DNA of 41,952 nt, taken from positions 1 to 41,952 of the IMG/VR virus record IMGVR_UViG_3300033388_003334, one strand, 5' to 3'. The notes under the pieces were generated by a model. It did not search any database. It saw only the letters and a program-made list of their open reading frames with translations, and was not told where the DNA came from. The position numbers and the translations under genes are program-made. Below are positions 783 to 19,786 of this stretch, one piece after another (position 1 is the first letter of the stretch; each line of letters opens with the position of its first letter). The stretch is from a virus.

Positions 783-1298
783 TTATTTTCCATTAGCAAG
801 TTTAAGTTTTAGTCTCCAAATACGCATAGCCATTAGTTCTAAGCATTTATTCATCTCTTTTTTAGTAAACTGGTAATCCCCATTTTTTACGGGATTTCTT
901 TTTATCTTACATCGATAGGTTTTCATTCGGCGTAACATTACTTTTTTAGTTGAGCTGACAATAATTATACCTGCCCTTTCGGGGACATGTTCAATACAAT
1001 TTTCTAAATAATCAGGAATAGCGAAATATAGGTATTTTATTTTTTTATGGAAATGACCTTGTTTTTTTTCTTTGTCCTTAATTAAATCTGGCTTTGTTAC
1101 TTTGATCTCTATTTCCGTGCAATATCCTAATCTTGATAAACGTATTAAATCGCATTCATGCTTAAAAAAAGACCATGATATATTCGGAATAATTAAATTA
1201 GTGCACCAATTCAAATAATTACCTACAGCAACTTCGACATCTAGAGCAGTTAATTTGACAGATGTTTGTCCTTTTTTATTTATATGTAAAACCGCCAT
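783..1298 (-). CDS. PD-(D/E)XK-fold nuclease-like protein (MmcB/VRR-NUC type)
   Basis: A 171-residue protein with a plausible PD-(D/E)XK nuclease core: Asp50 in HECDLIRLSR, then Glu64-Ile-Lys66 in EIEIKV, giving the D-x13-ExK pattern. The C-terminal half is rich in Lys and Arg, consistent with DNA binding. Family members act in DNA repair or recombination; a role in replication or processing of host DNA is inferred. The start ATG overlaps the polymerase stop codon by one base (TAATG) and has a GGAGG ribosome binding site about 9 bases upstream. It sits between polymerase and clamp loader genes. It is AT-rich compared with the polymerase gene. The fold assignment rests on motif reading only. 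Confidence 0.6.
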   Translation of the reverse strand: MAVLHINKKGQTSVKLTALDVEVAVGNYLNWCTNLIIPNISWSFFKHECDLIRLSRLGYCTEIEIKVTKPDLIKDKEKKQGHFHKKIKYLYFAIPDYLENCIEHVPERAGIIIVSSTKKVMLRRMKTYRCKIKRNPVKNGDYQFTKKEMNKCLELMAMRIWRLKLKLANGK

Positions 1299-3829
1299 TA
1301 TTTCAATTCCTCCATTTCAAACCAGTTTCCATCAACTGCACTCACTTTAATTTCAACAGACAGGGGTACATTTATCCACGGGAACTGCTTTCTGATCTTA
1401 ACCGTCATAGTATCTCTGATTAACGGCACCAGCTCTTCCAGCTCAGATGGATGCACATCAAACATAATCTCATCATATACCTGTAAACATACTTGCGACC
1501 ACCAACCCTGGGCGTGTGTTTCCTTTTCCAGCCCTATTAGCGACCATAAAAGCAGGTGGAATGCAGTGCCTTGAAACGGATAGTTCACAACGTTTTTCTT
1601 ATCTAGCACCCCACCACACCTAAACCCGGTTAGATACTCTACATACCCCTTATCCAGATACTCTTCCCACGCTTGCGCTTTCCACTTATCGAATACTTTA
1701 AACTTCTCCTTCCAAAATATTCGTTCTTCCTCTTTTACATGAGATTCAAAGGCTTTATAGTTTTTAATCCCCTGATCCTCTAGCCAGTAACGAAGGAGTA
1801 GACCACCGTTAGTATCTAGCCTCCCTGCCGCGTCCCATAATAAACGGGCGCATGATCGGTAATAATCCCCGTAGAACTCAGGAAATACAAACCCGGACTT
1901 CGCTTCATACCGGATTTCCTTTGTGATCTGTTCCGGGTCCAGCTTAAACAAACGCAGTGCCATATCCCGATGCATATCATTTGCCGGATTAGTCACATAG
2001 TCGATCATTACCGGGTCTTTGTGGTAAAAACAACCGGACATGACTTCTATTCCATCAAAATCTACAGTTAGTAGTTGGTGCCCTTTGCGGGGGATAACCC
2101 CAGTCCTCACAAGTTTTTGCATCTGCTTATCCCGTTTCGGAATATTCGCAAAGTTCGGGCTGGTGGTACTTGGCCTGTACGTTTTAGTCGTGTGTAGGTT
2201 TTGATTCGGATGAATTACACCACCGATAGATTCACGGAGAAACCCACCTACATACGTACTTTTTAATTTATCAGCTTCACGCCAAAAAATGATATCAGCA
2301 AATATTTGATGTTTTCCGCTAAGTTCTTTTAAAACTTCTTTATCAACACTGTATTTTGGTTTTTCTTTTGTACTCCCTTTTGTTTCCTTGCTTATTTTAA
2401 GCTTTAGCACGTCTAAAACGAGGCTTTTAGTTTGGGCATCCTTGGATATCTCCAGGTTCCTGTCTTTGAGTTCAAACCACTTTAAACCTTCAGGAGAGGT
2501 ATAAATACTATTTTCTAATTCCTCTAGCTTATCCCCCAGCTCAATATTCTTTTGCTTAAAATAATCTTCATCAATATGCATCCCGTTTTCCGTAATATTT
2601 CCCAGGGCCAGAACGCCAGCAAGGAAAAAATCATATTGCTCCGTTAAGCGCCTATCCTTAAGCCATCCTATTTGATCCATAGTCAGCCGGTAGCCGAACA
2701 TAGAATCCAGAGCGTTGTAATGCAGTAGCCGTTTAAGTGGTGCCAGATGTATATTATTCAGTCGATTATCTGATTTTGGGTCTTCGCCATCTTTGGTTTT
2801 AGTTAAATATGGTTCCATTTCGGCATCATACCCGGCAACGCCATAATTGATATACGTTTGAAACTTTAACCCGGCAATATGCGTCCGGTTATCAAGTACA
2901 TGGACCGCTAACATAGAATCAAAAGCATTGTTTTCCTGTTCGTACCCTAGTACGTGCCGGGTCCATTTCTGTTCAAACCCAATATTGTGTGCTGTTTTCT
3001 TTATGCTGGGATTAGCTAGAACCTGCTGTAGTAGCTTATGAAAGCTATCATTATCAAATAATGGAAAAGATGTTGCTTCATATGCGCTAGTAGCGAACGA
3101 TACGGAATAAAGCTCTTGCTCTTCCCGGTATGGTTTTAGCCCGGTTCCTTCGTAGTCAAAGGACATCCAACCCGAAATAAAAAATTCAATGTGCCATTTC
3201 AAAAAATCAATAGCCTCTTTAACGTCCGTGATAACGTTAATAGTCTCATAGTGGGTTACAAATTCCTTATTATGTTCTAGAGCGTGCAGCAGAGCATCAC
3301 TAAAAGCGTATTCTACCGCCTCGTTTTTATGCGTCCGTACAAACTCAATATCAAACAAAGGAAACACCCACGCTTTATAATCCTGATCGGGTATAGCGTG
3401 CCCAACCCACCGCGCCATCTCTCCTACATCGGACATCCGGTCGCCAACAAAGGATTTTAAAGCCGTGTGTCCGAAGATCAATATCTTTTCGGGCTTAAGC
3501 TCCTGGACTTGCTTTTGCCACTGCTGACGGCAGCAATTGATTACTTTGTTTGACGGCTCTATTTCTTTGCCTTTTTTATCTAACGGCAATTTGCATTGTA
3601 CTACAGAAATACACCAACAATCAGTTTCGTAAATATCATTATACTCTAATTGCGTGAATAACCAATTGCTATCAGTATTAGATAATACTTTATCTGTTAA
3701 TATTATTATTTTTTTTAATCCCGGACCTGTAGATATTATCTGCGTGGACTTATCCAGCGGGCAGGTACGGCAGTTCTGTACGGCTTTAGGCTTTATGACC
3801 TCAACTTTTTCGATCTCAAAGAATGGCAT
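1298..3829 (-). CDS. DNA polymerase family A with N-terminal UDG-like domain
   Basis: An 843-residue replicative polymerase. Residues about 15-165 resemble a family 4 uracil-DNA glycosylase: Cys20, Cys23, Cys79 and Cys99/100 match the Fe-S ligand spacing, and ILIFGHTALKSFVG matches the end of the fold. The usual GEAPG..ED active-site motif is not recognisable (about residues 42-54), so this domain is probably structural. Residues about 200-390 form a DEDDy 3'-5' exonuclease (Asp225, Glu227, HN at 281-282, Tyr371 and Asp375). The polymerase domain follows: motif A Asp590 in VDFDGIE, motif B Arg640, Lys644, Phe649 and Tyr653-Gly654 (apparently one residue longer than in E. coli Pol I), and motif C Tyr785-Asp-Glu, where Tyr replaces the common His. 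Only two bases separate it from the clamp gene upstream. Confidence 0.93.
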   Translation of the reverse strand: MPFFEIEKVEVIKPKAVQNCRTCPLDKSTQIISTGPGLKKIIILTDKVLSNTDSNWLFTQLEYNDIYETDCWCISVVQCKLPLDKKGKEIEPSNKVINCCRQQWQKQVQELKPEKILIFGHTALKSFVGDRMSDVGEMARWVGHAIPDQDYKAWVFPLFDIEFVRTHKNEAVEYAFSDALLHALEHNKEFVTHYETINVITDVKEAIDFLKWHIEFFISGWMSFDYEGTGLKPYREEQELYSVSFATSAYEATSFPLFDNDSFHKLLQQVLANPSIKKTAHNIGFEQKWTRHVLGYEQENNAFDSMLAVHVLDNRTHIAGLKFQTYINYGVAGYDAEMEPYLTKTKDGEDPKSDNRLNNIHLAPLKRLLHYNALDSMFGYRLTMDQIGWLKDRRLTEQYDFFLAGVLALGNITENGMHIDEDYFKQKNIELGDKLEELENSIYTSPEGLKWFELKDRNLEISKDAQTKSLVLDVLKLKISKETKGSTKEKPKYSVDKEVLKELSGKHQIFADIIFWREADKLKSTYVGGFLRESIGGVIHPNQNLHTTKTYRPSTTSPNFANIPKRDKQMQKLVRTGVIPRKGHQLLTVDFDGIEVMSGCFYHKDPVMIDYVTNPANDMHRDMALRLFKLDPEQITKEIRYEAKSGFVFPEFYGDYYRSCARLLWDAAGRLDTNGGLLLRYWLEDQGIKNYKAFESHVKEEERIFWKEKFKVFDKWKAQAWEEYLDKGYVEYLTGFRCGGVLDKKNVVNYPFQGTAFHLLLWSLIGLEKETHAQGWWSQVCLQVYDEIMFDVHPSELEELVPLIRDTMTVKIRKQFPWINVPLSVEIKVSAVDGNWFEMEELK

Positions 3830-3831
3830 GG

Positions 3832-4830
3832 CTAATCCGCCATTAAGGAAATAGCATGCTTGAAATTATCTCCAGAGAATAAAAATGATTTTTCCCCGAC
3901 AATAACAGTATGCAAATGCTTTAGAATATCCATAAAATGATCCGGGTGGATTTTAAGTACTACTGGTTCCCAGTCCCATTTTATTTTTATAGATTCTTCT
4001 ACACACCCGGCGGTTCCTTTACTTTTACAAATCAGTTTATTTTTTTGGAAATCCAATTCAATAAATTTATCATGGTCGAATTCTGTAGATACAAACACAC
4101 CAGTCCTATCTATGGTGTCTATCAGGTCTTTTGGTAGTGCTACTTTTTCCCCTTCGACCGAAAATAAAGGAGAAACATCCGGGTAATCCACTTGCATGGT
4201 CCGACAACTGAAAATAGTACCGGCCTCATTAGTGAAGTGGATCCAGGATTTATCAATAGCATACTCCACAGGGTTGTACCGGATAAGTACCCGGGCAGAA
4301 CTACCGGCCAAAAAGAATTTCTTTTTAATCTTACTGTCCAGCTTGTATTCAGTTACTCTGTAATTATCACAGGATAAAACGGCATCCTTACTTATATTCA
4401 GGCAGGTAAGCGCCGGGCGTGTCATGTCATTGCTGATAGAAAATAAGCTGAATTTTATAGCCTGATTAAAATTGGAAGGCAATTCTATCCAATCCTCTGG
4501 GAGGTCGATGACCGGAATTTTTATTTCCTTTTCGATCGCAATTGATGCTTTTGTTTTGCCGGATTTAATGACCAGTTGGTTGTCTTTTATTACACAATCA
4601 AGTTCTGGTTCTTTTAACTTTTCGAGCAATCTATAAAAAGCATTTGCGGCTATGGCTATCCCGTCGAGCCCTGTTTCTAGTTGGTGGCTGATTGTGATCT
4701 GATCGTTGTAGGTATATATTTCTCCAGCTTCAAAAATAAAATGAGTGGCCTGCTCTACCATTTCGTTGTTAGCCAAGCCGGGTTTGATCAATGATAATGT
4801 ATCAAGAAGTTCTTGTCTGTTTATTTTCAT
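3832..4830 (-). CDS. DNA polymerase sliding clamp (DnaN-like)
   Basis: A 332-residue beta-clamp-like protein that would encircle DNA and tether the polymerase. Seen: length close to bacterial DnaN (about 366), an N-terminal helix plus strand layout, and the middle-domain signature TRPALTCLNIS followed by LSCDNYRVTEYKL, which corresponds to the RxxLxGv...atDg.Rla region of DnaN. The C-terminal SGDNFKHAISLMAD is like the end of domain 3. The start ATG overlaps the stop of the DpdA-like gene (ATGA), so the modification and replication genes look co-transcribed and translationally coupled. The clamp loader ATPase and polymerase lie downstream in the same run. Confidence 0.85.
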   Translation of the reverse strand: MKINRQELLDTLSLIKPGLANNEMVEQATHFIFEAGEIYTYNDQITISHQLETGLDGIAIAANAFYRLLEKLKEPELDCVIKDNQLVIKSGKTKASIAIEKEIKIPVIDLPEDWIELPSNFNQAIKFSLFSISNDMTRPALTCLNISKDAVLSCDNYRVTEYKLDSKIKKKFFLAGSSARVLIRYNPVEYAIDKSWIHFTNEAGTIFSCRTMQVDYPDVSPLFSVEGEKVALPKDLIDTIDRTGVFVSTEFDHDKFIELDFQKNKLICKSKGTAGCVEESIKIKWDWEPVVLKIHPDHFMDILKHLHTVIVGEKSFLFSGDNFKHAISLMAD

Positions 4831-5660
4831 AATCCAAATCCGTTAGACTTAGGTTTAAATACCGTTGTTTTTTTATTTTTTATAAGTTTTTCAAAGTAAA
4901 TAACGCTTGTAGCTACTCTTTTTGCGGTGCCGGTTGAAGTAGCTTCTTGGGCCTCTTCTAAGGGAAAAGGCATATTTAAAGTAGCAAACCATTCATCTAC
5001 ATTACCTGTAGCTATTGGCGTTTTCCATCTTAAATCTTTTGGATTTACATTAGGATTTATTTTTAACCACCCCCAAGGGGTTGCGATACCGCCAAATCTA
5101 GCTTGCATGTGTGCAGAAGAAGAGTCTACACTTTTCCAGGGATATCTCAAAATAATATCTATATCTTGAATGCCAAAACCGTGAAATTGCCCGTTTGGAT
5201 ACATATTAAACACTTTATCTAGCCAAATAGCTCTTTCCTGCTTGGGCCTAAAAGCAATTCCCCCCAAAGCTACATAAGGAAATTCCATGTACTCTTCGAG
5301 TAGTTCAAAAGGCTCCCCTATATGAAAACAAGGTATCGATTCAACTCCGGCTTTAACCATCTTTTGAAAATTATTTTTTGTTTTTTTAAAGGAGCCAATA
5401 TCATCCAGGGCCGCAACCACTTCAGGATAGTTTTCAAGTCCTTTTAAAAAACGAATATAATCCACAACTTGTATTGTAATGTTTTGTCGGAAAGCGGAAA
5501 AAGCCCCACTATCTAAAAAAAGAGAATCGCAATAAATAGGTTTTTTTAATTTCTTAAGTTTGTAGTACGATATTAGAACACCTATTTTTAAATTTTCTGG
5601 AAGATAGGAGGCGAATTCTTTTTCTTTAACACTAGCCAGATTTGAATAGTAAATTTTCAT
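4827..5660 (-). CDS. dpdA: DpdA-like DNA guanine transglycosylase (7-deazaguanine insertion)
   Basis: A 277-residue protein of the phage DpdA/TGT-like family, which exchanges guanine in DNA for a 7-deazaguanine base. Seen: LFLDSGAFSAF with Asp50, VVAALDDIG with Asp86-Asp87, the VALGGIA turn near 130-136, FHGFG at 159-163, and KSVDSSS with Asp179. By analogy with tRNA guanine transglycosylase, Asp50 would be the general acid/base and Asp179 the nucleophile; this is inference. It lacks the C-terminal zinc site of bacterial TGT, as expected for DpdA. Its neighbours FolE, QueC, QueE and QueD make the substrate preQ0. It overlaps folE and the clamp gene by 4 bases on each side. No clear ribosome binding site is present, so translation probably depends on folE coupling. 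It is markedly AT-rich, which may indicate separate acquisition. Confidence 0.85.
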   Translation of the reverse strand: MKIYYSNLASVKEKEFASYLPENLKIGVLISYYKLKKLKKPIYCDSLFLDSGAFSAFRQNITIQVVDYIRFLKGLENYPEVVAALDDIGSFKKTKNNFQKMVKAGVESIPCFHIGEPFELLEEYMEFPYVALGGIAFRPKQERAIWLDKVFNMYPNGQFHGFGIQDIDIILRYPWKSVDSSSAHMQARFGGIATPWGWLKINPNVNPKDLRWKTPIATGNVDEWFATLNMPFPLEEAQEATSTGTAKRVATSVIYFEKLIKNKKTTVFKPKSNGFGL

Positions 5661-6211
5661 CTGATTAACCGCATTAATTCATTTCTAACATCCAGCTTAT
5701 CAAGAAAAACACCTTTTAACGAACTCGTAACCATAGTAGAATTTTGTTTCTGAATCCCCCTGGCCATCATACATAAATGGGTTGCTTCAATAATACAGGC
5801 TGCTCCTTTTGGTTGTAAATATTCCATTAAAGCACCGGTTACTTGCTCCCCGATACGTTCCTGAATTTGCGCTCTACGGGCAAAGATTTCCAGCAGCCGT
5901 GCAAGTTTGGAAACACCAATGACTTTTCCATCTGGGATATAGGCGATATGCACTTTACCAAAAAACGGCAGCAGGTGGTGCTCGCACATGGAATACATTT
6001 CAATATCTTTCAAAACAACCATTTCATCACACGCACCATCTTTAAACGTGGTCATGATATCCTTCGGGTCTTTATCGTACCCAGCATACAATTCTTTCCA
6101 GGATTTAACGACCCGTTCCGGTGTTTTTAGTAACCCTTCCCGTTTCGGGTTTTCCCCGATGTATAGAAGTTGCTGAATAACAGCTTCTTTTGCGTGGCAT
6201 TTACTTTTCAT
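5657..6211 (-). CDS. folE: GTP cyclohydrolase I
   Basis: A 184-residue GTP cyclohydrolase I, which converts GTP to 7,8-dihydroneopterin triphosphate, the first step of both folate and 7-deazaguanine synthesis. Seen: the CEHH zinc/active-site motif at residues 76-79, HLCMMARG with His145 and Cys147 (third zinc ligand and catalytic region), and the VIGVSKLARLLEIFARR helix. Length is like other single-domain FolE enzymes. The start ATG has an AAGAGG ribosome binding site five bases upstream and overlaps the end of queC by 11 bases. It overlaps dpdA by 4 bases. The context of queC, queE, queD and dpdA says it serves preQ0 production, not folate synthesis. Confidence 0.95.
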   Translation of the reverse strand: MKSKCHAKEAVIQQLLYIGENPKREGLLKTPERVVKSWKELYAGYDKDPKDIMTTFKDGACDEMVVLKDIEMYSMCEHHLLPFFGKVHIAYIPDGKVIGVSKLARLLEIFARRAQIQERIGEQVTGALMEYLQPKGAACIIEATHLCMMARGIQKQNSTMVTSSLKGVFLDKLDVRNELMRLIR

Positions 6212-6893
6212 TTAACCTCTTAATTAAAGGATCTATTTTTCCGGCTTCTTCAAATCCTTTTTCACGTAAAACACACGCCGGACACTTTCCACAGGGAAGT
6301 TGGGTGCCTTCATAGCATGTATGGGAATATGCTAAAGCATCAAAACAGCCCGGTAATTTGTTAGCCGTCTGGATGGTTTCTGCCTTTGTTAATCGCATCA
6401 AAGGTGTGTGGATGATAAATGAATTTTCACCTTCACCATCAAACATACCTAGGTTTAACGTGGTTTGTAGGCTCTTAATCGTGTCATCCCTACAATCTGG
6501 ATAACCGGAATAGTCTGTTTGACAAACCCCGGTAACGATATGTTTTATCCCGTGCTTAAAGGCAACCATAGCCGCCACAGTAAGTAGGATAATATTTCTC
6601 CCGGGAACAAAAGATGAGGGCAGCCCCCCGGACCTATGGGGAACAGAAATATTACCGGCATGCAGCAATGCAGAATCGGCAATTGGCTGAAACAAGGATT
6701 CCAGGTTTATCACTGTCCGTTGTACACCAGCCAGACCACAAATAAATTCGGCCGCTTTTATTTCAGCGGAATGCCTTTGCCCATACTGGATAGATAAGGT
6801 ACGGACCTCCTTGAACTTTTCTTTTGCCCAATACAGACAAGTGGTGGAGTCCTGCCCCCCAGAGAACAGGACCAATGCTTTTTTGTTACTCAC
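6201..6893 (-). CDS. queC: 7-cyano-7-deazaguanine (preQ0) synthase
   Basis: A 230-residue PP-loop ATPase that turns 7-carboxy-7-deazaguanine into preQ0 using ATP and ammonia. Seen: the SGGQDS PP-loop at residues 11-16, and four C-terminal zinc cysteines (193, 201, 204, 207) in CYEGTQLPCGKCPAC. I chose the GTG at 6891-6893 because a GGGG ribosome binding site sits nine bases upstream and the length then matches E. coli QueC (231). An in-frame ATG at 6914 has no such site. With this start the gene overlaps the upstream gene by 8 bases. There is no fused amidotransferase domain, so this is QueC and not the Gat-QueC type used for archaeosine. Confidence 0.95.
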   Translation of the reverse strand: MSNKKALVLFSGGQDSTTCLYWAKEKFKEVRTLSIQYGQRHSAEIKAAEFICGLAGVQRTVINLESLFQPIADSALLHAGNISVPHRSGGLPSSFVPGRNIILLTVAAMVAFKHGIKHIVTGVCQTDYSGYPDCRDDTIKSLQTTLNLGMFDGEGENSFIIHTPLMRLTKAETIQTANKLPGCFDALAYSHTCYEGTQLPCGKCPACVLREKGFEEAGKIDPLIKRLNEK

Positions 6894-7689
6894 AGTAAAA
6901 ATCCCCTTTTTCATTTTTAACGATGGCCATTCCTTTTTCTTTTGCCATCCGTTTTGGAAGCTGGGCTTGAATTGTTTTCCCCATACTCTCAGAGGATCGG
7001 TCTGGAAAGGCTTTTTCCAATTCAACCAACAAATCCACTTTAGAAACAGGTTTCTTTTTTGTTGCCTTGGAAACCAGAGTTTGAATTGTAGCAATAACAC
7101 CAGGGCCTTTTTTCTTGACGGCTGGTTTGTCTTTATCCTTGGCTTTTGCCGGTACTTTCTTTTTCTTTGTTATCGGATCAGATCTTTCCGGCTCGTGCCA
7201 CTTTACGTTGATAGCATTAGCGGTGAAGAATACCAGCGTTTCCGGTTTAAACAACTCAGGAGTATCATCAGGCGTGATCATCTTCCCATTCTCTTCGTAC
7301 GGTGCGTTGATCTCATTTGCCATTTTTTGGATCTCAGCGACCGCTTTTTTGTCGGTCATTTTCTTAAACTTTTGGATTGCTGGTTTTTCATACCCCAGTA
7401 CATCAATCACATCCTCAGCAGCGGCCAGGATCAACGCTTTTTCATCCACTTCTTTTTCCGGTGGGGTTTCTGCCGGTGGGTCTTCGTTAACCTTACAATC
7501 CAGCTCATCTAGCGCATCCAGCGTAGCATCTTCCAGGGTAGAAAAATCGAACCCGGTTAACACTTTTACTCTGGCTTTGATTGCTTCTTTGAGGGCCTCA
7601 CCTTTAACCGCTACAACTTTGATGGGCATGCATTCTGATTTTTTAACAAGGTCTTTTGCTGCTTTGATAAAATCCTTGTGAACTAACAT
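6886..7689 (-). CDS. Lysine-rich protein of unknown function within the deazaguanine cassette
   Basis: I do not recognise a named family. The 267-residue protein has three parts: an acidic and alanine-rich N-terminal half (about residues 1-165), a strongly basic Lys/Pro/Ala linker (about 170-200, with repeated KKK and KAKDKDK stretches), and a C-terminal globular segment (about 200-267, from GVIATIQTLV to KNEKGDFYCE) that looks like a small helical DNA-binding domain. It is first of the cluster that continues with queC, and its stop overlaps the queC GTG start by 8 bases. An ACGGAG ribosome binding site lies six bases before its ATG, and a TATAAT box lies 42 bases upstream. A DNA-binding or accessory role is plausible but not shown. 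Confidence 0.75.
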   Translation of the reverse strand: MLVHKDFIKAAKDLVKKSECMPIKVVAVKGEALKEAIKARVKVLTGFDFSTLEDATLDALDELDCKVNEDPPAETPPEKEVDEKALILAAAEDVIDVLGYEKPAIQKFKKMTDKKAVAEIQKMANEINAPYEENGKMITPDDTPELFKPETLVFFTANAINVKWHEPERSDPITKKKKVPAKAKDKDKPAVKKKGPGVIATIQTLVSKATKKKPVSKVDLLVELEKAFPDRSSESMGKTIQAQLPKRMAKEKGMAIVKNEKGDFYCE

Positions 7690-7730
7690 GTTTTCTCCGT
7701 TTGGTTTTTGATTAATTATCTTACACTACT

Positions 7731-7736
7731 ATTATA
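7731..7736 (-). promoter_or_regulatory. Putative -10 box upstream of the deazaguanine/replication run
   Basis: Read on the minus strand, TATAAT lies 42 bases before the ATG of the lysine-rich protein, in the only non-coding gap (7690-7761) between queE and that gene. A good -35 box at standard spacing is not obvious; a GGTTTACT stretch lies nearby but too close. A host sigma-70 promoter for the downstream run (unknown gene, queC, folE, dpdA, clamp, polymerase) is the likely meaning. Confidence 0.4.
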
Positions 7737-7761
7737 CGCATTTTCGATAGTAAACCTGAAT

Positions 7762-8412
7762 TTATTTTAATAAATTTATGCTTTCCTTTTCCTCCTGGTA
7801 GATAACTTTATGTAATTGCAGGTTAATTCCAATATGATAAAGCCGATCTTTTTTTAAGTTCTCTATCAAATCCCTGGGATCTACTTTACCATAAATCGGC
7901 GCCAAGTAAATATTGGCATCTGTTTTATTTTCTGAAATTAACTGCTTGGCTTGAATGTAATCCTCAACACTTCCAATAACGATTTTGATATAATCATCTT
8001 TTGTCAACAGGTGCCAGGGCACAACCATTTTATCCGTACATTGTAATTTATAATCCATCACAATACTACAATTTCGGCTTGCACCACCCGGAAAATCCGG
8101 TATTATAGTCCCGTTGGTTTCTACGGATACCCTATAATATTGAGTTAATAAAGCATCTATCAACTTACCCATCCCCTTTTGCAAAAACGGTTCCCCACCT
8201 GTAATAGTTACTTTAGAAATTCCTGGTGGTATAGCTGCGATTATTTTGGTTATGGAATATTTCTTGCCGGCTTTTGTGGACTGGGCATATTCTGTATCAC
8301 AATAATCGCATTGCAGATTACAGCCGGCAGTTCTGATAAAACAAGTAAAACCACCCTGTCCCCATTTATTAACCTCCCCATCTACACTAATAAACATCTC
8401 ATTTATCATCAT
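7762..8412 (-). CDS. queE: 7-carboxy-7-deazaguanine synthase (radical SAM)
   Basis: A 216-residue radical SAM enzyme that rearranges 6-carboxytetrahydropterin to 7-carboxy-7-deazaguanine. Seen: the CxxxCxxC cluster motif in CNLQCDYC (Cys31, Cys35, Cys38), the SAM-binding TGGEP at 71-75, and the N-terminal FISVDGEVNKWGQGGFTCFIR segment typical of QueE. The ATG has a GGAG ribosome binding site seven bases upstream and overlaps the end of queD by 14 bases; a second ATG follows directly. The gene is followed by a 72-base gap before the next run. Confidence 0.95.
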   Translation of the reverse strand: MMINEMFISVDGEVNKWGQGGFTCFIRTAGCNLQCDYCDTEYAQSTKAGKKYSITKIIAAIPPGISKVTITGGEPFLQKGMGKLIDALLTQYYRVSVETNGTIIPDFPGGASRNCSIVMDYKLQCTDKMVVPWHLLTKDDYIKIVIGSVEDYIQAKQLISENKTDANIYLAPIYGKVDPRDLIENLKKDRLYHIGINLQLHKVIYQEEKESINLLK

Positions 8413-8764
8413 TGGTCCACTCCACGTAGCCGTTATCAGATTCCCATAATTTTAATTTATGAATGTTTAAAAGATGCACCAACATATCACCCATCCATTC
8501 CAACATATTTTCGCAGGTTGGATCGAAATCAAAAATATCATTAAGGTAATTGTGATCCAATTTATCAATGATGTGCTCGTTTACAGCAGTTTTCAAATCA
8601 TAAAAATCAATAACCATTCCCTTGGAGGAGCCTTCTTTTTTTAAATCCCCTTTTACAGTCACCTCCAGTTTATAATTATGTCCGTGTAGATTTTGACATT
8701 TTCCATCATGGTTTGGTAAATAATGGGCTGCCGCAAAAGTAAAAATTTTAGTGCATGTTATCAT
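8399..8764 (-). CDS. queD: 6-carboxy-5,6,7,8-tetrahydropterin synthase
   Basis: A 121-residue member of the 6-pyruvoyltetrahydropterin synthase/QueD family, converting dihydroneopterin triphosphate to 6-carboxytetrahydropterin. Seen: zinc histidines His14, His27 and His29, catalytic Cys23 in DGKCQNLHGHNY, the LDHNYLND motif carrying the Asp-His pair, and a late conserved Glu region (LWESDNGYVEW). I chose the ATG at 8762-8764: it has a strong AGGAGGTGAG ribosome binding site and starts one base after the helicase stop codon. Longer readings into the helicase gene are not needed. It overlaps queE by 14 bases. Confidence 0.95.
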   Translation of the reverse strand: MITCTKIFTFAAAHYLPNHDGKCQNLHGHNYKLEVTVKGDLKKEGSSKGMVIDFYDLKTAVNEHIIDKLDHNYLNDIFDFDPTCENMLEWMGDMLVHLLNIHKLKLWESDNGYVEWTNDDK

Positions 8765-8765
8765 C

Positions 8766-10319
8766 TCACCTCCTAGATCTATGTTTTGGCCCGGTATCTT
8801 CTTGGGTTTCCTCTGTTTTAAAATCATCAACATAGCCATCTAAAAACGCATTTCCGATAGCTAGCTGCTGTAGAACTACAATATCCCTGCCGCTGACTTT
8901 ATCATCCCGCTCAAACAGCATAGACCAACGCATTATCCCCTGTTCGTATTCCTCCTTTGTTTGATTAAGGGCAATCATTCTGTCTACGTGACTAGATTTC
9001 CGCTTGTCCTCTGACGGGCTACCCTTGTTTATTTTCTTGTCGTAGCTTTCTTTATTTGTTTGTGTGGCGCTGGCTACCCCCGCGTTAAATTCCTGGGCTA
9101 GTTTCTTATGGTTTCCCCAGATATCATCCAGCCCGTTCCGGTAATCAAGTTTTGGGTTATCCGGGATCATCAGGTCAGCATAGTCAGTAATAATTAGATC
9201 GGGAATAAAACCCTCATATTTCTGCCATAGCAATAACTGATTAGAGATATCCCGGCAGGATTTAGTTTTCTGGGGCCAGGACTGCACCTTTAAATTCCCT
9301 CTGGTGTATGTCTTGAGGGCTTTTATTTTCTTGGCAACTATCGCAGGATTCAGCACCGGTTTTTTATTTGTGCGGTGACTGATAGCCCGGACAAAACTCT
9401 TTCGGCCCTTACGTGTTGCCCCCTCGCATATCCGGCAAATACTGTAATCTTTACCAATCAGCATTTTACCATCGTTGTATATCGCTTTACCCTGGCCCGT
9501 CCGTTTATCGCAGTCCCCGCGCTGGTTATAGTGACAATCAAAATACGGGATCAGACAATCCTTATGCTTCTCCTTCGCCGGGGAACCAGTAACACACTGC
9601 ACCAGTCTAATCCACAGCTTTTTTCTCATCTCAAAACTAAAGATTGCCACGTTATACCCTCGGAAAAGAGCTTGCAACGCTATCTCAGAGAGCGCAAACG
9701 ACTTCCCCCGTTTTTCTGGTGCCGCGAAGGCCACGAAGTCCCCACGGCAAAGCGGAGGAATAACCGCACCGGCTGCCCCCTTGAACTTAAACAGTTGGTC
9801 ATTATCATCTGGGGAGAAAAACCCTGCTATTTCATCCACATCATTAAACAGATCCAGCCCGGACCCGGTGGGTGTTTCTAGCTGATTAAACCCGGCGATT
9901 AATATCTCTGCCGCTTTCGTATCGTTGTTGTTGATGCTGACCTGGAGCTGTTCCCGTAGGTCCAGCACATTTCGCTTTTGGAAATACTCCTCTGCCTGTT
10001 TAAGTATGTACCGCCAGTTAAACACCTCTGTGCGGTCGTATTCGGTCGATAACAGGGATAAAAACTTTTCAATAGCTTCGCATAGGGTATCATCTAAACG
10101 TTCACTTTTGCCCTTGTAAACGGCCTCTATCGTCTTGTTTGGTGCCTCGGTGTATGTTTCGTAGTAATCCCAGCACCAACCAGCAATTATTTTAGCGTAT
10201 GGGATCTGAAACAGATCATTCCGGTACAGGTACTCAAAGCCCTGTAGGAAATCGGTGGAAACTATCATAGCCGTGATGATAGACTTCTCCACGTATGAGT
10301 CTAACTTTTTAATTTTCAT
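8766..10319 (-). CDS. Replicative DNA helicase, DnaB-like, with Cys-rich insert
   Basis: A 517-residue RecA-fold replicative helicase. Seen: Walker A APEKRGKS (200-207) after the GDFVAFAA strand, a FSFEMRK segment like the DnaB FSLEM motif, Walker B LIITDYADLM with Asp379, SATQTNKES like the DnaB sensor strand, and a later FERDDK region. Between the first two core motifs lies an insert at about 245-315 with Cys262, Cys270, Cys295 and Cys298, probably a zinc site. The N-terminal 190 residues would be the hexamer/primase-binding domain. The gene starts directly after the stop of a 67-residue gene. The TOPRIM primase and putative initiator genes upstream complete a primosome set. Confidence 0.88.
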   Translation of the reverse strand: MKIKKLDSYVEKSIITAMIVSTDFLQGFEYLYRNDLFQIPYAKIIAGWCWDYYETYTEAPNKTIEAVYKGKSERLDDTLCEAIEKFLSLLSTEYDRTEVFNWRYILKQAEEYFQKRNVLDLREQLQVSINNNDTKAAEILIAGFNQLETPTGSGLDLFNDVDEIAGFFSPDDNDQLFKFKGAAGAVIPPLCRGDFVAFAAPEKRGKSFALSEIALQALFRGYNVAIFSFEMRKKLWIRLVQCVTGSPAKEKHKDCLIPYFDCHYNQRGDCDKRTGQGKAIYNDGKMLIGKDYSICRICEGATRKGRKSFVRAISHRTNKKPVLNPAIVAKKIKALKTYTRGNLKVQSWPQKTKSCRDISNQLLLWQKYEGFIPDLIITDYADLMIPDNPKLDYRNGLDDIWGNHKKLAQEFNAGVASATQTNKESYDKKINKGSPSEDKRKSSHVDRMIALNQTKEEYEQGIMRWSMLFERDDKVSGRDIVVLQQLAIGNAFLDGYVDDFKTEETQEDTGPKHRSRR

Positions 10320-18702: not shown

Positions 18703-19455
18703 TCATGGTTGTGCAACACACAGCGCACCGCATTCTATATCGGGTAACGGCACAGACCTGCCGGATGTTGGATCTAATTCATCCAAAAACACCCGCTTTC
18801 GTTTTCCGTCCCCAGCGTAGCTCTTGCAGATTGCAACGTTCATTTTTCGCTCTTGCCTTGCCATTTTTTCAAAGTACTCAGGAAAATCAATACGTATTTT
18901 ATTCCAGTACCCCTGCCCCCCCTTCACACAGCCAATACAATTATTGTTGTTGTATCCGAGTTTATACATTTTTGGGAGTTCAATATTCGCCTCTTGGAGG
19001 ATTCTGTAACAATCTTTTTTAGTGATTTCATTATAGTATAGAATCCAATCCAAATAAATAACAGGGTTTGTTTTTTCAAATGTATCGATCCGTTTTTCTT
19101 CGTCGGATGTGAGTCCAAAAATATGGATATCGCCGGGTTTTTGATAAGCCAGCCTAACGTTTTTTTTCAACTCCGTCGTGCATCTCGCACCGCCAACACC
19201 GACAAGCCATCCCGTTTTATCAAACACGTCGTAAATATCTTGGTACTTGTCCGATTTCAAGATTGTTATCTTTTTGCCTATCCATTTTTCAACATCAGAT
19301 AAAAACCTCGTATTGTCAGGATGTTCATACTTGAGAGTATCACAATATAAAACCTCGCATTCTGGGTACTCCTCGACTGCCATTTTTGCAGCCACGGCGG
19401 AAGCAGCCCCGCAAGAAAACCAAACTAGGGTTCTTTGTTTATTGCTGTCGTTCAT
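18703..19455 (-). CDS. PP-loop ATPase of the PAPS reductase-like family
   Basis: A 250-residue N-type ATP pyrophosphatase fold protein. Seen: a PP-loop variant SCGAAS (14-19) in place of SGGxDS, CDTLKYEHPDN after the second strand, a GARCTTELK segment (Cys92) like the wCT..LK of PAPS reductases, FGLTSDEEKRID, and two Cys pairs: CIGC (173, 176) and CGALC (242, 246), which could hold zinc or Fe-S. Such proteins are common in phages and mostly unassigned; relatives act in sulfate reduction, DNA phosphorothioation (DndC) and base modification. I chose the ATG at 19453-19455 with an AGGAG site ten bases upstream. It is the gene nearest the divergent centre. A link to the deazaguanine pathway is only a possibility. 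Confidence 0.75.
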   Translation of the reverse strand: MNDSNKQRTLVWFSCGAASAVAAKMAVEEYPECEVLYCDTLKYEHPDNTRFLSDVEKWIGKKITILKSDKYQDIYDVFDKTGWLVGVGGARCTTELKKNVRLAYQKPGDIHIFGLTSDEEKRIDTFEKTNPVIYLDWILYYNEITKKDCYRILQEANIELPKMYKLGYNNNNCIGCVKGGQGYWNKIRIDFPEYFEKMARQERKMNVAICKSYAGDGKRKRVFLDELDPTSGRSVPLPDIECGALCVAQP

Positions 19456-19786
19456 GATCCACAATCTCCTATAAGAGGTTAATACCTAAATCGTTACTTA
19501 AACCGTACCATAAAACTAAGTAAGTAATTTACCCTATAGTAGAACTATAAAACTAAGAAAGTAAAGAAAAAAAGGAAAACGAAGAAAAAAAGCAGGTAGT
19601 AATACAATAAATCCTTATACCTAGTGGGTTTGAGCTATATCAGTTAAAAATAGGTTATTTAGGAGTATACTTTCGTAAAAAAATTTAGGTAAACTTATAG
19701 CAAATAGACATAAACAGTTAATAACGGGGCGTATACCAGACTATCTTAATACTACAGGCCCTGATCGGCAAAAGGTAAGAGGATAG
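19456..19786. promoter_or_regulatory. Divergent intergenic region between the two genome arms
   Basis: A 331-base AT-rich gap between a leftward and a rightward gene, so it should hold promoters for at least the first genes of both arms. Seen: two 23-base direct repeats differing at three bases (19505-19527 and 19542-19564), a purine-rich stretch (19553-19592), a candidate rightward -10 TATACT at 19666-19671 with a weak TTAAAA -35, and the AGAGG ribosome binding site of the small terminase gene. No tRNA-like fold noticed. Confidence 0.5.
19505..19564. repeat. Two 23-base direct repeats
   Basis: The units at 19505-19527 and 19542-19564 share 20 of 23 bases, with the common core ATAAAACTAAG, and are 37 bases apart. 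Spacing of about 3.5 helical turns would place bound proteins on different faces. They could be regulator sites or part of a packaging or replication site. Confidence 0.6.

Follow-up and report, generated by a model that had tools for sequence, protein, structure and literature searches.

The viral DNA analysed here, IMG/VR record IMGVR_UViG_3300033388_003334 (referred to as the window, 41,952 bases), carries on its minus strand genes for FolE, QueD, QueE, QueC and a putative DNA transglycosylase, DpdA, set within a replication operon. By its gene sequences this cassette is a new, uncultivated member of the known systems that modify DNA with 7-cyano-7-deazaguanine (preQ0). FolE, QueD, QueE and QueC would make preQ0 from GTP; DpdA would excise guanine from phage DNA via a covalent aspartate intermediate and insert preQ0, giving 2′-deoxy-7-cyano-7-deazaguanosine (dPreQ0), and the inserted base would mask restriction sites from bacterial enzymes. 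In addition, a flexible C-terminal peptide of DpdA would bind the phage sliding clamp, DnaN, and keep DpdA at the replication fork, coupling modification to the synthesis of new DNA. This explanation as a whole, i.e., synthesis, insertion and a clamp-held DpdA, is considered probable. Its least certain step, the docking of DpdA on the clamp via the C-terminal tail, is a proposal from sequence that we favor only slightly. What is new is the occurrence of the tail across the DpdA family and its co-variation with the tails of other proteins; the literature searches made found no paper linking DpdA to clamp binding.

The DpdA of the window (277 amino acids (aa), versus 317 in phage 9g and 306 in phage CAjan) matches phrog_887. 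In a tblastn search 218 phage records were matched (best E 3e-28), and a search for close relatives using DpdA alone gave none. A tree of 52 DpdAs places the window protein, with full support, in a clade of nine whose members all come from viral contigs and which is separate from the 9g/CAjan clade. When the DpdA alignment was searched as a profile against solved structures, only chance matches came up, and a fold comparison was needed. An AlphaFold2 (AF2) model, for which the window protein was aligned with 59 viral-contig relatives (60 sequences), has a confidence (predicted local distance difference test, pLDDT) of 93.9. The solved folds nearest to it are those of tRNA-guanine transglycosylases (TGTs; Z 18.6) and of DpdA 7ui4, which inserts preQ0 into DNA (Z 18.5). 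The model thus confidently assigns the TGT/DpdA fold. Residues D50, D86, H113, H160 and D179 are invariant in the 60 relatives. By motif position D50 and D179 match D102 and D280 of TGT and are probably the two catalytic aspartates, the residues whose loss was to count against the original prediction. A conserved histidine (position 196) is a trait of phage DpdA and is said to be missing from DpdA2; the invariant H160 could be its counterpart.

The near-equal distance of the fold from tRNA TGTs and from DpdA, together with the PHROGs family name, queuine tRNA-ribosyltransferase, could suggest that the enzyme acts on tRNA and boosts a queuosine pathway. A CxCxxC zinc site is a trait of the tRNA TGT family, and the window protein, which has two cysteines in total, cannot form it. 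The relatives from 9g and CAjan, moreover, put the base into DNA (PMC6884629). A tRNA target is therefore very improbable, and DpdA is taken as a DNA transglycosylase.

All five proteins that had been read as FolE, QueD, QueE, QueC and DpdA have both family matches and the expected motifs. The active-site motifs CEHH and HxC of FolE, CxxxHGH and DH of QueD, and CxxxCxxC of QueE are intact when the proteins are aligned with phage counterparts that have been characterised or annotated. For QueE the top NCBIfam models are indeed QueE, yet they score below cut-off (165.8 of 260). QueC displays SGGQDS, a YxQxHxxE-like motif, VPxRN, YPDC and the zinc cysteines CxxCxxC, which fit the refined canonical QueC signature (PMC13329287), and has no amidotransferase domain. 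A longer queC open reading frame (ORF) from a GTG at 7100 was rejected and the ATG at 6914 was taken as the start. The original prediction had passed over a 267-aa ORF inside the cassette. This protein has no match in Pfam, PHROGs, NCBIfam or phage records; its last ~70 residues recur near dpdA in ~20 related loci.

Phages that encode DpdA and FolE/QueD/QueE/QueC without an amidotransferase have been termed "group 2" (PMC6884629). Mass spectrometry showed dPreQ0 replacing ~32% of G in CAjan and ~28% in Rosebush; CAjan deleted for dpdA loses both the modification and its protection from restriction enzymes (PMC6884629). As the same gene set yields dPreQ0 in those two phages, and as no QueF, ArcS, QueF-L or GAT-QueC/amidotransferase was found among the ORFs scanned in the window, an incomplete contig, dPreQ0 is by analogy the best prediction for the final DNA base. 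The absence of these genes had been stated previously and is borne out in the ORFs scanned, and 2′-deoxy-preQ0, the base then predicted, gains support from the group 2 gene set, the DpdA fold and the conserved aspartates. For the window phage itself we infer both the chemistry and dPreQ0 as its end product.

A derivative (dPreQ1, dADG, dG+ or another base), made by an enzyme of the host or one encoded outside the contig, should also be considered. The contig covers 42 kb and is incomplete, and some relatives are longer than 60 kb. It may lack a later-acting enzyme, which weighs against dPreQ0 as the end point, and conversion of the nitrile could be the role of nitrilase-like or DUF6884 proteins that some relatives encode. 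However, wherever such candidates turned up in relatives they were no more than a few kb away from dpdA, on its upstream side, and the corresponding stretch of the window, which is complete, holds no nitrilase-like or DUF6884 candidate. A derivative is thus rather unlikely, and dPreQ0 is retained as the predicted base.

A tie between modification and replication, also part of the original prediction, is seen in gene order across the family. The start codon of dnaN overlaps the dpdA stop codon by 4 nt, and dnaN is on the same strand in 115 of 132 non-redundant dpdA loci, nearly always directly downstream of dpdA. The order dpdA-dnaN-polA is common to 9g, CAjan, Bhz54, RHEph04, PaMx25, 033B and R7M, with small ORFs intervening in CAjan (one) and RHEph04 (two). 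The AF2 model of the window DnaN (pLDDT 93) matches the fold of beta clamps with a template modelling (TM) score of 0.88.

At the C-terminus of the DpdA model the last block is flexible and of low confidence (pLDDT 65, versus >90 in the core), and a hydrophobic terminus is conserved in the relatives. The bacterial clamp-binding consensus is QL[S/D]LF, or QxxLF in its general form; in Bacillus subtilis DnaE the clamp motif reads QMGLF (PMC12309361). The DpdA of S0112, ending in QDQMGLF, has the same peptide as B. subtilis DnaE. Most DpdAs of phages with a clamp gene of their own have a short hydrophobic tail, and other ends from such phages are EQMELF (Bhz54), DQPGLF (033B), RIQELF (PaMx25), RLQDLFDE (9g), RVMELF (CAjan), EQQGLFV (BcepGomr) and RQRRLF (Dp-1). 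The peptide is missing in Bipper, PenguinLover67, Nicole72 and Sonali, four actinophages in which no DnaN was detected, and RothC, also without a detected phage DnaN, has the tail PQLAFEI. Within the last nine residues an exact QxxLF is present in 15 of the 132 non-redundant DpdAs, 2 of 2160 other ORFs and none of the 385 FolE, QueC, QueD and QueE sequences that these loci encode. A broader hydrophobic end pattern is found in 97 of the 132 DpdAs (73%), 176 of the 2160 other ORFs (8%) and 1-7% of the four biosynthetic enzymes. An earlier set gave Qxx[LF][FLW] in 19 of 101 DpdAs versus 3 of 1516 (Fisher p 3e-21). Related sequences were thinned and not treated as a tree, and the tail counts are thus not fully independent. 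In four loci, L007 (positions 5603 and 7986), L009 (5989 and 6770), L015 (7084 and 7980) and L038 (1935 and 2867), there are two DpdA-like genes each, and both proteins bear hydrophobic C-terminal tails.

Several points weigh against docking on the clamp. The window tail, SNGFGL, lacks the Gln at position 1 and the Phe at position 5 of QxxLF; it was not filed as a QxxLF peptide and resembles instead the GFxL variants of its relatives. AB3P2 has a canonical tail (QQCLF) and no DnaN was found, so that the host clamp would have to serve, and phiSM encodes DnaN, yet its DpdA has no tail. QxxLF was taken from the literature, but the broader patterns were written after the tails had been viewed, and their p-values are for that reason overstated. 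In phage T4, where alpha-glucosyltransferase binds the clamp gp45 and gives a precedent for clamp-bound phage DNA modification, the binding is not the main cause of the enzyme's larger share of glucosylation and seems to be of limited importance in vivo (PMC13216743).

Alternatively, the cassette may work with an untethered DpdA, the hydrophobic tail serving in self-association, as a protein turnover signal or in binding another protein of the replisome. We hold this to be less probable than docking, but a substantial alternative: clamp binding is read from a sequence pattern and most tails are not canonical QxxLF, and the DpdA2 of nt-1, which comes from a different clamp system, is without such a tail (neither it nor the HVTV-1 candidate ends in a convincing clamp or PCNA peptide). 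On the other hand, AF2 leaves the tail flexible and not packed, canonical or near-canonical QxxLF peptides are found beside phage-encoded clamps, and proteins of unrelated folds from the same genomes bear the tail as well, while it is nearly absent from the four enzymes that work on free metabolites.

This sharing among unrelated folds speaks for docking, as the other proteins with tails (nitrilase-like proteins, DUF6884 proteins and methylases) are likely to act on DNA. In 4 non-redundant loci another, unrelated protein has exactly the same last four residues as the DpdA of the same genome: a nitrilase-like protein (GFDI, L050), an N6/N4 DNA methylase (GFGL, L057) and two DUF6884 proteins (GFEI in L020, GFDL in L051). 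When DpdA tails were shuffled among loci, a mean of 0.32 exact matches was obtained, with a maximum of 3 in 1000 trials. A looser comparison, allowing one mismatch in the last four residues, was dropped (14 matches versus a shuffled mean of 8 and maximum of 15, in redundant loci). Other nitrilase-like proteins end in GGFGL, GGLGL, QLDLWR and PLGF; in the pair from L133 and L134 the hydrophobic residues sit further in from the end. Another protein, read as methyltransferase-like from its motifs, ends in KGFDL. GAT-QueC of 9g, R7M and PaMx25 has no tail, which would be consistent with an enzyme that works on the free base.

Nitrilase-like (CN_hydrolase) proteins occur in several dpdA phages (L050:6213-7148, L011:6383-7318, L059:6348-7406 and L133-L136). 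Their E, K and C residues are conserved, and they are candidates for converting the nitrile of preQ0, perhaps on DNA. DUF6884 (YaaA-like) proteins with DpdA-like tails are found beside dpdA (L020:3297-3707, L036:3920-4324 and L051:5763-6389) and may act on the base after its insertion. For several phage enzymes it has been left open whether the base is converted before or after it is inserted (PMC6884629). A wider proposal, to which we give even chances, is that DpdA and the later enzymes (nitrilase-like proteins, DUF6884 proteins and methyltransferases) all dock on the phage clamp via a C-terminal peptide tuned to that clamp, whereas enzymes that make the free base do not.

If this were so, the presence of a tail would separate steps on DNA from those that use the free base, the nitrilase-like and DUF6884 proteins would be marked as acting on DNA-bound preQ0, and 7-deazaguanine modification in phages would be a replisome-coupled process. 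The tail pattern offers a physical explanation for the position of dpdA beside dnaN, and, used as a rule for sorting enzymes, it nominates candidate new DNA-base-modifying enzymes. Because the family-wide tail co-varies with the tails of other enzymes, a replication-coupled mechanism is directly testable. With this cassette a known anti-restriction strategy gains a tailed phage that is uncultivated and a DpdA clade free of isolates.

Features of the predicted modification cassette and replication operon in the window
Feature	Position	Strand	Evidence or remark
dnaX		minus	replication operon; cut by contig end
MmcB-like ORF	783-1298	minus	replication operon
Family A DNA polymerase (polA) with N-terminal UDG-like domain	1298-3829	minus	PF00476 1e-46; PF03167 5e-6
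DnaN-like sliding clamp	3832-4830	minus	phrog_947 7.5e-33; profile match to bacterial beta clamps 3e-23
DpdA, putative DNA preQ0 transglycosylase, 277 aa	4827-5660	minus	phrog_887 7e-41
DpdA C-terminal tail KPKSNGFGL, proposed docking peptide (non-canonical clamp-binding motif)	4830-4856	minus	AF2 model; relatives
FolE, GTP cyclohydrolase I	5657-6211	minus	TIGR00063 1e-68, 230 bits (cut-off 181.6)
QueC, 7-cyano-7-deazaguanine synthase	6201-6914	minus	TIGR00364 1.5e-62, 211 bits (cut-off 150.3)
267-aa protein, function not assigned	6886-7689	minus	blastp to 22 related loci
QueE, 7-carboxy-7-deazaguanine synthase (radical SAM)	7762-8412	minus	phrog_2076 3e-33
QueD, 6-carboxytetrahydropterin synthase	8399-8764	minus	TIGR03367 2e-31, 108 bits (cut-off 89)
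DnaB-like replicative helicase	8766-10319	minus	phrog_19 2.9e-36

From high to low coordinates the minus strand reads dnaB, queD, queE, the unassigned ORF, queC, folE, dpdA, dnaN, polA, the MmcB-like ORF and dnaX. The genes had been described as chains overlapping with those of the clamp and helicase. This is correct for dpdA/dnaN, dpdA/folE, folE/queC and queE/queD, but queD and dnaB are separated by 1 nt and a 72-nt gap precedes queE. The plus strand has genes for a terminase, portal, major head protein, tail sheath and tape measure, as well as Mu-like baseplate genes; judged by these, the window is a fragment of a tailed phage, known only as uncultivated DNA, whose tail has a contractile sheath. 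The IMG/VR record consists of the whole window and is classed as linear, with genes cut at both ends. As the record is a fragment, a gene missing from the window is not necessarily missing from the genome. A nucleotide search with the first 20 kb against phage records gave no match. A PAPS-reductase-like protein (phrog_424), of an ATPase superfamily shared with QueC, is encoded at 18703-19464.

Among known systems, T4 alpha-glucosyltransferase with gp45 is similar to the arrangement proposed here in that a DNA-modifying phage enzyme is physically tied to the phage sliding clamp. Enzyme, base and clamp are however unrelated to those of the DpdA system, and binding was shown in T4 whereas for DpdA it is a reading of the tails. 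CAjan and Rosebush have the same five functions as the window and no amidotransferase (Rosebush by its published description, PMC6884629), and in CAjan dpdA likewise adjoins the clamp and polymerase genes. Both are siphophages, in which the window phage differs, and CAjan also encodes a putative preQ0 transporter and a DpdA of the other clade, ~32% identical. Enterobacteria phage 9g, whose base is dG+, shares the dpdA-dnaN-polA order and FolE, QueD and QueE, but its QueC is fused to an amidotransferase domain.

Edwardsiella phage vB_EpM_ZHS resembles the window in having QueC-FolE-DpdA followed by DnaN-PolA-DnaX, a short DpdA (266 aa), and a related DnaB and primase. Its DpdA belongs to another clade, and queD and queE were not found in the 18.7-kb stretch compared. 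Unlike the window QueC, that of vB_EpM_ZHS (L002:7372-8256) is without the zinc cysteines, as are those of Bhz54 and RHEph04, and the product of the vB_EpM_ZHS enzyme is uncertain. An uncultivated sister phage (L087, IMGVR_UViG_3300035698_009801) has DnaN, DnaX, DnaB and PolA that are 78%, 76%, 74% and 70% identical to those of the window, and dpdA in the same position, although the two DpdAs are only ~35% identical. Between its dnaB and dnaN (L087:4262-7582) are found a Mom protein (PF25680 1e-29), a Vut_1 transporter (PF02592 7e-13), a relative of the 267-aa ORF and DpdA; no FolE, QueC, QueD or QueE was found in the stretch examined. Going by their families, Vut_1 would be a preQ0 transporter and Mom an adenine modifier. 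The sister phage thus appears to have switched from making preQ0 to importing it, with an adenine modification added.

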